Assembly (NCBI GenBank): GCA_023485845.1
Contig: JAMCZE010000002.1
Coordinates: 1 to 50,608 of the forward strand
Origin: Patescibacteria group bacterium
GTDB lineage: Bacteria > Patescibacteriota > Microgenomatia > JAMCZE01
DNA length: 50,608 nt
Direction of reading: 5' to 3'
Positions 37,913 through 40,995 of this stretch are shown here, piece after piece. The stretch's first letter is position 1; every line of letters starts with the position of its first letter. The notes under the pieces were generated by a model. It was not told where the DNA came from. It saw only the letters and a program-made list of their open reading frames with translations, and did not search any database. The translations under genes were made by a program, and so were the position numbers.

Positions 37913-38626
37913 CTAATAGGTGGTACAAATTGTTTTAATTTCCCCAAATGAAATCGTGCTAGTTGGATCGGTGGCTCTTTGGATGTCGTTTTGGAAATCG
38001 GCAAAACTCAAAAAGGGTTTTTTGACAAAGCGGGCTAGGCTGCTTTCTTTCACCCACTCATATGTGCCCTCTTTGTTTGACTGCAGCTGTCCGGTGGGAT
38101 TTTCTACGGCGCAGAGAAGAACCGTCCGGTCATCAAGAATTTTATTTGTTTCCGGTTCTAGATAAATAATATGACGGGCGCTGATTAATTTTGGCTCCCC
38201 TTCCAGGTTGGTCTCTTCTTTCAAAACGCGCCGGGCGGCTGTTTCAGCAGTTTCTCCAAAAAACACCTTTCCACTTCCCAATCCTTGGCAGCCATAAAAA
38301 GGCTGCTTAGCCCGGGTGTAAATAAGAAATTCCAATAACCCGTTTCGCCGCCTGATGGGGCATAGATGAACGACCAGTTTGGATTGCTTTTTCACTGAAG
38401 TGCTGTGGGTGTCAATCCGGCTGGCGAATTCTTTGCCCTCGACGGTGAGAAAATACCGGTTGGATTTTTTCTCCACCAAGCCAAAGCGGATTAATTGTTT
38501 TAGATGAAAACCCAGCAGGTTATTCTCAATTTTCTCACTGGGCCGCAAATCGGTGTGGCGTAATGATTGGGCAAACAGCAGTTTTTTTAAAATCTCCAGT
38601 TGCAGCCGATGTAGTTGTTCAGCCAT
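37913..38626 (-). CDS. Winged-helix plus Nudix hydrolase protein
   Basis: A 237-residue fusion. The first 75 residues form a winged-helix-like domain (LQLEILKKLLFAQSLRHTDL, LKQLIRFGLVEKKSNRYFLTVEGKEFA). The Nudix domain has the box GKVFFGETAETAARRVLKEETNLEG, matching GX5EX7REUXEEXGU in its key Glu residues. Nudix enzymes cleave nucleoside diphosphates linked to X; DNA-binding fusions such as NrtR act as metabolite-sensing repressors, which may apply here. Its start is adjacent to the stop of the 94-residue gene. Confidence 0.88.
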   Translation of the reverse strand: MAEQLHRLQLEILKKLLFAQSLRHTDLRPSEKIENNLLGFHLKQLIRFGLVEKKSNRYFLTVEGKEFASRIDTHSTSVKKQSKLVVHLCPIRRRNGLLEFLIYTRAKQPFYGCQGLGSGKVFFGETAETAARRVLKEETNLEGEPKLISARHIIYLEPETNKILDDRTVLLCAVENPTGQLQSNKEGTYEWVKESSLARFVKKPFLSFADFQNDIQRATDPTSTISFGEIKTICTTY

Positions 38627-38911
38627 TTATTGCGATCTTATCACATCCCGGCCTCGTCTGAATCTTCCCCATTCATAATCAAGCCAGCCACTTCGGACCA
38701 AATCTTTTGCCACGTCTTCTGGCGTTTCTTCAATAAGGGGAAAATAGTGATTTTCGCTTTGTCTTAATTCGTTATATTTTTTTAATAGGTCAGCCGTAGT
38801 AAATCCGTTTTCCTGTTCCATCATCCATTGATCCAGCGGTGTGGTGATGGGATTCTTAATCGGTGCCCGCCTCCCTTCCCGGCTGACCAGTGCTTCGTAA
38901 GTTATCGCCAT
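38627..38911 (-). CDS. Hypothetical protein (94 aa)
   Basis: An unknown acidic/basic soluble protein: MAITYEALVSREGRRAPIKN, then GFTTADLLKKYNELRQSENH and VAKDLVRSGWLDYEWGRFRR. The middle resembles a small helical DNA-binding-like unit, but nothing is certain. It is first in the run 38911-37525 with the wHTH-Nudix gene and has one of the two near-identical promoters in this region. ATG is 7 nt after TAAAAT. Confidence 0.65.
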   Translation of the reverse strand: MAITYEALVSREGRRAPIKNPITTPLDQWMMEQENGFTTADLLKKYNELRQSENHYFPLIEETPEDVAKDLVRSGWLDYEWGRFRRGRDVIRSQ

Positions 38912-38918
38912 TTGGTTG

Positions 38919-38961
38919 ATTTTAGATAGAAGTGAGAGAATTTCTAGTCAAGACAACTTGA
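38919..38961 (-). promoter_or_regulatory. Promoter/operator A (shared with 39737-39779)
   Basis: On the minus strand AGTCAAG-type palindrome TCAAG-TTGT-CTTGA (38961-38948) runs into TTGACT, then 21 nt, then TAAAAT (38924-38919), 7 nt before ATG 38911. The layout and about two thirds of the spacer match promoter B. The -10 could be TAAAAT or the TATCTA four bases earlier. Confidence 0.65.
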
Positions 38962-39090
38962 CCTTGACTTTCTAGAACATTGCTTATAGTATTACCTTTA
39001 AAGAGATTTCTGAGTATGACTACAAGAAATTTACCGATTGGTTTTTGAAACTACGTTAAACAACCCCGTTGGTGAGTAAAGTAACTGCCA

Positions 39091-39729
39091 TTACAATAAT
39101 TTGTCGCGCTCTTGGGTCAGTTCCCGGATTTTTCGTTCAATGGCCCAACGACGCATTTCATTCCAGGTCGGCTCTTTCCAGTTTTGTAAGACCCCCAACA
39201 AAGCTTGGGCTAGCGGGGCGATTATTTCCAGGCGATAGGAAACCAGTCGCTCCACCGCCGGCCCAACAGTATTGGCATCAATATAATCTGCGCTGACGGC
39301 GGTTTTTTGGGCCGTGTAGTCAAGAAGAATTTTTCCAACGGCATCCTCGTGGTCAAGACTAAATCGTCCGTAGGAATTGAAAACTAAGCCATAGACAGTG
39401 TCTTTAAGAAGGGTGTTTATGTGGTGCTCACTCCTGTGTAGTTCTTCCTCTGGGTCTTGGGAACCGTTAATTGGAAAGGCGGTGATATCACCATAGGTTT
39501 CTTCAGCGGGAAACTCCCCACGTGACTCGCCCCGGGCGATTAAGAAAGTGCGGTCCCTGACAGGCACATAACTGGCCGAGGAGTAGAGCATCCAAGCTCG
39601 TTGATAGCCGTGGAAATCGGAGCCATAATGGGCAATTTCAACGGGGACTTTTTTGGGGAAGTTAATTTTCTTGGCTGCTCCACTAGTCAGCTCAGCGAAA
39701 ACCCCATCTAAGACTTCCTGTGATTTCAT
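39091..39729 (-). CDS. Hypothetical protein (212 aa)
   Basis: An unknown soluble protein with an alpha/beta N-terminal half (VEIAHYGSDFHGYQRAWMLY, DRTFLIARGESRGEFP) and a helical C-terminal half with RLEIIAPLAQALLGVLQNWK and ERKIRELTQERDKLL. No catalytic motif is clear. Its promoter is a near copy of that of the 94-residue gene 818 nt away, so the two are probably co-regulated. The stretch 38962-39090 has no recognised feature. Confidence 0.65.
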   Translation of the reverse strand: MKSQEVLDGVFAELTSGAAKKINFPKKVPVEIAHYGSDFHGYQRAWMLYSSASYVPVRDRTFLIARGESRGEFPAEETYGDITAFPINGSQDPEEELHRSEHHINTLLKDTVYGLVFNSYGRFSLDHEDAVGKILLDYTAQKTAVSADYIDANTVGPAVERLVSYRLEIIAPLAQALLGVLQNWKEPTWNEMRRWAIERKIRELTQERDKLL

Positions 39730-39736
39730 TGCCCTG

Positions 39737-39779
39737 ATTTTAGACCAGAGTGTGAGAGTGTCCAGTCAAGACAACTTGA
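39737..39779 (-). promoter_or_regulatory. Promoter/operator B (shared with 38919-38961)
   Basis: The same block as promoter A: TCAAG-TTGT-CTTGA palindrome (39779-39766), TTGACT, 21 nt, TAAAAT (39742-39737), and 7 nt to the ATG at 39729. Spacing is identical. A regulator recognising the palindrome would overlap the -35-like TTGACT. Confidence 0.65.
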
Positions 39780-39804
39780 TCAGGGTTTGTAGTAGTATTG
39801 GGGC

Positions 39805-40995
39805 ATGGAAACAGCGGTGGTCAATCTATTATTAATTCTTCTTCCCACCCAATTGGGGCTGCACCTCTGGCCCAGTTGGGCATTCGTTAATGGGATTAGA
39901 GTGGACTACTTCTCCCCCACCCTCTATTTAACCGACGTCCTGATTTTTTTATTATTCCTATCAGTAATTTTCAATTTGGCTTCGCGTTCCTTCGGAACTC
40001 AATTTAAAATTTTCAATAAATATTCAATTTTCAAATTATTAATTTTCATTGGTTTCACTACGCTTAATATCTATTGGTCGCTATCTTCCTGGGTAACGCT
40101 GTATAAGTGGTTGAAAGTCATTGAGTTCGGTTTTCTTATTTGGTACCTGGTTAAAAGCTACAAGCTAACCCCGATCAAATCGGGGCTAAAAGCTATCAGC
40201 TTATTATATGTGCCTGTTTTCTATGAATCTATTTTGGCCATTTGGCAGTTTGTCAATCAATCCTCGATCGGTGGTTTCTGGTATTGGCTTGGTGAGCGGT
40301 CGTTTAACTCCGGGACGCCGGGCATTGCCAACGCCGATGTCGCCGGCCAATTAATTTTGCGACCCTACGGCACTTTCCCCCACCCCAATATTCTCGGGGG
40401 GTTTTTAGCGGTGGTTTTGCCCCTGCTGCTCTGTCTTTTCCTGCATAATTCCCGCAAATTAACTGCACCGGCAGTCATTAAGGGTGCAACCCTATTATTG
40501 GGCTATTCTACGCTCTTTTTGTCGCTGTCGCGAACGGCAATTTTGGTTGGTATGGCAGCCACTTTTGTTGTTTTCTGGCCAAAAATTAAGAAGAGGGTTT
40601 TTCTTTTGGTTTTCCTTGTGCCGTTAATATTTTTACTGCCGCGGTTTGCCGCCTTGCCGCTGGAAACAGAACCAATAATTATTCGCGAACAATTAAATAG
40701 TTTGGCAATCGAGCAATTTACCCATTCCCCCATCTGGGGCACCGGTCTGGGAACAGCGCCGCTCTATTCAATTGTTCGCCAGCCAACGCATAACATTTAT
40801 TTACTATTGTTGGCTGAAACCGGCGCCATTGGTCTGTTGGGATTTTTGTTTTTAATCAGGCAGTTTTGGAGCTGGACGTTGGCGATTATTCTCCTTCTTG
40901 GCCTAACTGATCATTATTTTTTAACTCTGCAACAAGGCCAATTGCTGTTGGCGGTTGTCTTGGGGGCGGGTATAATGAAACGATGGCCTCGCTAA
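39805..40995 (+). CDS. O-antigen ligase/polymerase-family membrane protein
   Basis: A 396-residue protein with about ten membrane helices and the Wzy/WaaL-type outer-loop signature GTGLGTAPLYSIVRQPTHNIYLLLLAETGAIGLLGFL. These enzymes join lipid-linked sugar units or transfer them to a carrier. PHPNILGGFLAVVLPLLL is also typical. ATG 39805 lies 6 nt after TAGTAT. It overlaps the flippase gene by 13 nt, forming a two-gene surface-polysaccharide unit. Confidence 0.88.
   Translation: METAVVNLLLILLPTQLGLHLWPSWAFVNGIRVDYFSPTLYLTDVLIFLLFLSVIFNLASRSFGTQFKIFNKYSIFKLLIFIGFTTLNIYWSLSSWVTLYKWLKVIEFGFLIWYLVKSYKLTPIKSGLKAISLLYVPVFYESILAIWQFVNQSSIGGFWYWLGERSFNSGTPGIANADVAGQLILRPYGTFPHPNILGGFLAVVLPLLLCLFLHNSRKLTAPAVIKGATLLLGYSTLFLSLSRTAILVGMAATFVVFWPKIKKRVFLLVFLVPLIFLLPRFAALPLETEPIIIREQLNSLAIEQFTHSPIWGTGLGTAPLYSIVRQPTHNIYLLLLAETGAIGLLGFLFLIRQFWSWTLAIILLLGLTDHYFLTLQQGQLLLAVVLGAGIMKRWPR

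Follow-up and report, generated by a model that had tools for sequence, protein, structure and literature searches.

The winged-helix–Nudix protein P0002 probably binds an 18-bp inverted repeat at the promoter of its own operon and controls its own transcription, repressing it until a nucleotide-type ligand lifts the block; on comparative sequence evidence we hold this reading as a whole to be likely. The gene lies in a 50,608-nucleotide stretch of contig JAMCZE010000002.1 from a Patescibacteria group bacterium (the window), where its start adjoins the stop of P0001 (TAA-ATG) and a second copy of the promoter precedes P0003 (Table 1). The named relatives of this bacterium are Woesebacteria, Amesbacteria and Blackburnbacteria, which places it among the Microgenomates-type Patescibacteria. 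The initial annotation described the two driven genes (94 and 212 residues) as unrelated in sequence and unknown, and this description holds. No significant similarity was found between the two proteins, neither matched a family in Pfam, NCBIfam or PHROG, and searches of the class genomes returned no relatives of either; P0003 had none in the genome or in viral contigs either, and its single-sequence structure model was unusable (pLDDT 39). The 117-aa frame downstream of P0002 apparently has its own promoter and so need not belong to the P0001–P0002 operon. An open frame between P0003 and operator 1 (NIAYSITFKEISEYDYKKFTDWFLKLR, ending in a stop; window 38985-39059, plus strand) resembles the end of a decayed gene, with a promoter-like TTGACT-17-TAGTAT pair just ahead of it.

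Table 1. Genes, operators and core promoters of the locus, in window coordinates.
Feature	Coordinates	Strand	Basis and remarks
P0001, 94-aa protein, function unassigned, first gene of the operon	38627..38911	-	No match in 350 other class genomes
P0002, 237-aa winged-helix–Nudix protein, proposed regulator	37913..38626	-	Pfam NUDIX E 6e-8, HTH_45 E 0.0016; AlphaFold model; family alignment
P0003, 212-aa orphan protein, second putative target	39091..39729	-	Relatives searched for, none found
Wzy_C (O-antigen ligase)-like gene, divergent	39805..40995	+	Wzy_C E 2e-7, slightly below curated cut-off
117-aa ORF downstream of P0002	37525..37878	-	Apparent own leaderless promoter TAGACT-18-TATAAT (37915-37886)
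Operator 1, GGTCAAGTTGTCTTGACT	38946..38963	-	Core TCAAG-N4-CTTGA at 38948-38961; model R1 32.4 bits, E 3.5e-8
Core promoter 1	38919..38946	-	-35 TAGAAA (38946-38941), 16 nt, -10 TAAAAT (38924-38919), 7 nt to ATG; promoter scan, layout as in relatives
Operator 2, GATCAAGTTGTCTTGACT	39764..39781	-	Core at 39766-39779; model R1 31.3 bits, E 7.9e-8
Core promoter 2	39737..39764	-	-35 TGGACA (39764-39759), 16 nt, -10 TAAAAT (39742-39737), 7 nt to ATG; promoter scan

Both promoters of the annotated pair were found on the minus strand with the same layout; aligned ungapped from operator through ATG, they are identical at 42 of 55 bases. The 16-base operator core TCAAGTTGTCTTGACT is the same at 16/16 positions, and TCTAAAATCA and the spacing to ATG are unchanged. 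The window contains two copies of TCAAG-N4-CTTGA where chance would give 0.11; the whole genome of 883 kb contains three, and none of the reversed control pattern. The spacer, most of whose bases had been reported as shared, does agree at 13 of its 21 positions, including 10 of the 16 that lie past the -35, but it has diverged relative to the unchanged operator core, -10 and ATG distance. Promoter DNA could simply have been duplicated recently and come to rest before P0003, leaving a second promoter with no regulatory role. The 10/16 spacer match, compared with a mean of 4.5 for pairs within the family (4 of 231 pairs as high), does suggest common descent, but divergence of the spacer around a constant operator core, -10 and ATG distance is the pattern expected under selection, and we regard duplication without function as improbable.

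TTGACT had been taken as the -35 box of these promoters. We rejected this assignment: the 21 nt between it and TAAAAT exceed the spacing of a sigma-70 promoter, and the promoter scan instead pairs TAAAAT at 16 nt with TGGACA at site 2 (score 10/12) and TAGAAA at site 1 (9/12). Since relatives show the same order of operator, TAGACA or TAGATT, 16-17 nt, a TATAAT-like box, about 7 nt and ATG, TTGACT reads as the right half of the operator. From the scanned -35/-10 pairs and the relatives' layout, the operator abuts the -35 and is centred some 42-44 bp ahead of the inferred start; the mRNAs from both window promoters are probably leaderless. This position of the centre would also suit a class II-type activator, in which the same regulator at the same operator recruits RNA polymerase beside the -35 and regulates itself positively; the right flank CTAGA, conserved with no left-hand mirror, and the weak -35 before P0001 (TAGAAA) fit such a role as well. 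Against it, the promoter elements come fairly near consensus (TGGACA/TAAAAT, 10/12), and characterized Nudix–winged-helix regulators such as MsNrtR autorepress (PMC6800001), with BtAraR released by its ligand (PMC4666351). Activation is thus conceivable, though the less probable sign; repression is favored because the -35/-10 pair appears competent alone and the operator lies against the -35.

The operator family is an 18-bp inverted repeat, AGTNAAGTCGACTTNACT, of which the P0002 version is GTCAAG-TTGT-CTTGAC. Relatives of P0002 with the winged-helix–Nudix (wHTH-Nudix) architecture occur in about 1/10 of the genomes of the class and about 1/7 of those of the phylum. A phylum-wide scan for core plus symmetry placed the operator before 45 of 63 wHTH-Nudix genes, compared with 7 of 1182 control windows; the 63 include genes from other classes, in genomes unused in motif building. 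Leave-one-out scoring recovered it at 22 of 31 class homologues, nearly always 51-56 nt before the ATG, at scores of 9-32 bits, where the 99th percentile of the null was 6.7. For roughly one wHTH-Nudix gene in four, the sequence directly ahead of it shows no clear site. Some such genes are internal to operons, and where the adjacent promoter lacked the operator, a site was sometimes found before an upstream gene of the operon: it stands ahead of methyltransferase–wHTH-Nudix operons in genomes G166 and G246, and G246 also has it at an operon of a 71-aa gene and a wHTH-Nudix gene, a layout matching P0001-P0002. The P0002 operon likewise combines the architecture with an AGTNAAN6TTNACT operator at its own promoter. 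The presence of the palindrome upstream of relatives had been named as a check on the initial proposal, and relatives of the regulator across the phylum do have this inverted repeat at the promoters of their own genes.

Gene contexts of the relatives vary, and only the methyltransferase–wHTH-Nudix operon recurs in more than one genome; a search among the relatives for conserved neighbors pointing to the ligand established none. In this recurrent arrangement the operator comes first, then a class I methyltransferase gene, then the wHTH-Nudix gene; it was seen in at least two genomes (L082:5161-6620 and L079:5549-6924), and the pairing may hint at the ligand. Searches of the open-access literature yielded no account of a Nudix regulator that has its wHTH first and uses this operator; the family of self-regulators is apparently widespread and undescribed.

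The two halves of the operator vary together. Mirrored positions 4 and 15 are symmetric in 20 of 27 sites compared with 7.8 expected (0 of 5000 shuffles as high), as would be expected of a symmetric dimer site. Variation also follows the protein, in a motif that opens the presumed recognition helix and whose third residue tracks operator position 4. All 15 cases with Asn at this residue have C:G, and only 2 of the 37 without Asn have that pair (Fisher p 3e-11, phylogeny ignored); the Asn label requires three changes on the protein tree, and a Ser-bearing row inside the Asn group (L120) has A:T in its operator instead. The second residue of the motif tracks position 2, where G accompanies Asn in 19 of 20 cases and C accompanies Ser or Thr in 16 of 25. 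In P0002 the motif is ENN, and both window sites (GTCAAG and ATCAAG) have C at position 4, the C:G pair. A second wHTH-Nudix gene of the same genome encodes the same Asn, and this paralogue could be the main binder.

The candidacy of the wHTH-Nudix protein as the regulator, advanced in the initial annotation, is well supported by the operators at relatives' promoters, the half-site covariation and the residue–base correlation. An unrelated transcription factor encoded elsewhere might in principle bind the palindrome, P0002 being tied to it by sequence comparison; the strong operators at wHTH-Nudix genes and a variable operator base that tracks a winged-helix residue make this very unlikely. 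The same tracking bears on a reading of the inverted repeat as an RNA hairpin, terminator or leader structure, which the scan's listing of GTCAAGACAACTTGAC as terminator-like on the plus strand might suggest. The repeat lies upstream of the -10 and outside the transcript it precedes, it has no Rfam family match, and relatives keep its position relative to the promoter; we give the hairpin practically no weight.

The operator model, run on the organism's own genome, returned at E < 0.1 only the two window sites and the promoter of the paralogue (C10:170666), where the operator is weaker in form. The third genomic TCAAG-N4-CTTGA (C3:4820) was rejected because its flanks are wrong and it lies within a different inverted repeat, close to a serine recombinase, and near matches with 2-3 mismatches at C2 and C10:55227 were rejected as lying inside coding sequence. 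An inverted repeat, TGTGCTCAAC...GTTGAGCACA, stands ahead of a serine recombinase gene at L001:1440-1600 and may be a site of attachment or control. Across 351 class genomes, every match outside the window at E < 1e-3 fell at a wHTH-Nudix gene or operon, a duplicated promoter copy (beside a PIN-domain gene in L084), a divergent neighbor sharing the site (L086) or a degraded copy (L093); this search is partly circular, since promoters of the same wHTH-Nudix family supplied the class-level motif. In L084 (1523-2254), a PIN-domain-like and AbrB-like pair sits between two near-identical wHTH-Nudix promoter copies, as if inserted beside a duplicated promoter. At L093:1463-1510 (minus strand), an intact-looking operator and promoter stand before a wHTH-Nudix remnant whose reading frame is apparently broken.

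The regulon had been predicted to be small, as the very few genomic sites bear out. Its proposed membership of two needs widening: the P0001-P0002 operon and P0003 both have sites, and a third lies at the second wHTH-Nudix gene. Operator 2 also ends 24 nt before the ATG of the divergent Wzy_C-like gene (TAGTAT at 39793-39798), so that this gene may be affected too, and its co-regulation from operator 2 is possible. Because the other class-genome matches fall at wHTH-Nudix genes or operons, P0003 appears to be the clearest separate target.

P0002 consists of a winged helix (residues 7-68) followed, from residue 84, by the strands and helices of the Nudix domain, in an AlphaFold model with a pLDDT of 92.7. 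The closest folds to the Nudix half are MTH1 and MutT proteins and the NrtR Nudix domain. In the family alignment its Nudix box, GKVFFGETAETAARRVLKEETNL, has RE replaced by RV and Gly by Asn, so it departs from the active-hydrolase signature GX5EX7REUXEEXGU in the Glu of RE and in the Gly; the Glu concerned, Glu134, is at least 90% conserved in the family and is Val in P0002. The paralogue (L074:4953-5666) keeps the full box, as do most relatives. P0002 is therefore probably catalytically inactive and only senses its ligand, as judged from these substitutions. Just upstream of the paralogue, at L074:5936-7878, lie two seemingly identical tandem IS3-like transposase genes (rve domain).

We propose that a P0002 homodimer binds the inverted repeat against the -35 of its own leaderless promoter and, by covering the -35, would repress its own synthesis until binding of a nucleotide-type ligand by the Nudix domain frees it from DNA. 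The same operator would bring in the P0003 promoter and, more weakly, that of the second wHTH-Nudix gene. Most relatives, with an intact Nudix box, may also hydrolyze the ligand, combining enzyme and repressor in one protein; P0002, with one catalytic glutamate lost, probably senses without cleaving. A broader history can be offered tentatively: the family would comprise active Nudix enzymes, each repressing itself in a ligand-sensitive way, that control almost only themselves and are kept across Patescibacteria, and here one copy would have lost catalysis, become a dedicated repressor and captured P0003 by promoter duplication.

Most Patescibacteria lack cultures, and very little is known of how they regulate their genes. 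The present analysis gives a regulator family, a phylum-wide operator and a one-residue-to-one-base recognition rule, displays a promoter layout that is leaderless and has the operator abutting the -35, and suggests a route from self-regulated enzyme to dedicated regulator.

NrtR proteins, the Nudix-related transcriptional regulators (Rodionov et al. 2008), offer the nearest parallel: a Nudix domain joined to a winged helix, a palindromic operator and autoregulation, the last presumed for P0002. The initial analogy with an NrtR-type fusion nevertheless gave way. NrtR has an N-terminal Nudix-like domain and a C-terminal winged helix (PMC4666351), whereas P0002 has the winged helix first and the Nudix domain second, and Pfam reports no NrtR-type winged-helix family in it. 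The impaired Nudix signature typical of NrtR and AraR is shared by P0002, whose change resembles that of MsNrtR, an autorepressor that no longer hydrolyses ADP-ribose (PMC6800001); most P0002 relatives, in contrast, retain the signature and its catalytic residues. The MsNrtR operator, GTTTTCGA-N7-TCGAAAAC, differs as well, and no NAD or sugar/pentose genes occur at P0002-type sites, the genomic matches of model R1 being confined to the regulator genes, P0001 and P0003. MutT/MTH1-type hydrolases have a fold like the Nudix half of P0002, but those listed lack an N-terminal DNA-binding winged helix. Autogenous 'trigger enzymes' such as NadR, PutA and BirA carry an enzyme-like and a DNA-binding domain in one polypeptide and control their own promoter. 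The P0002 family likewise joins enzyme-like and DNA-binding domains and puts an operator at its own promoter, although the domains differ and its enzymatic activity is putative. The P0002 family is thus not NrtR; NrtR is the closest known kind, and the family is best filed among the Nudix-linked transcription regulators.
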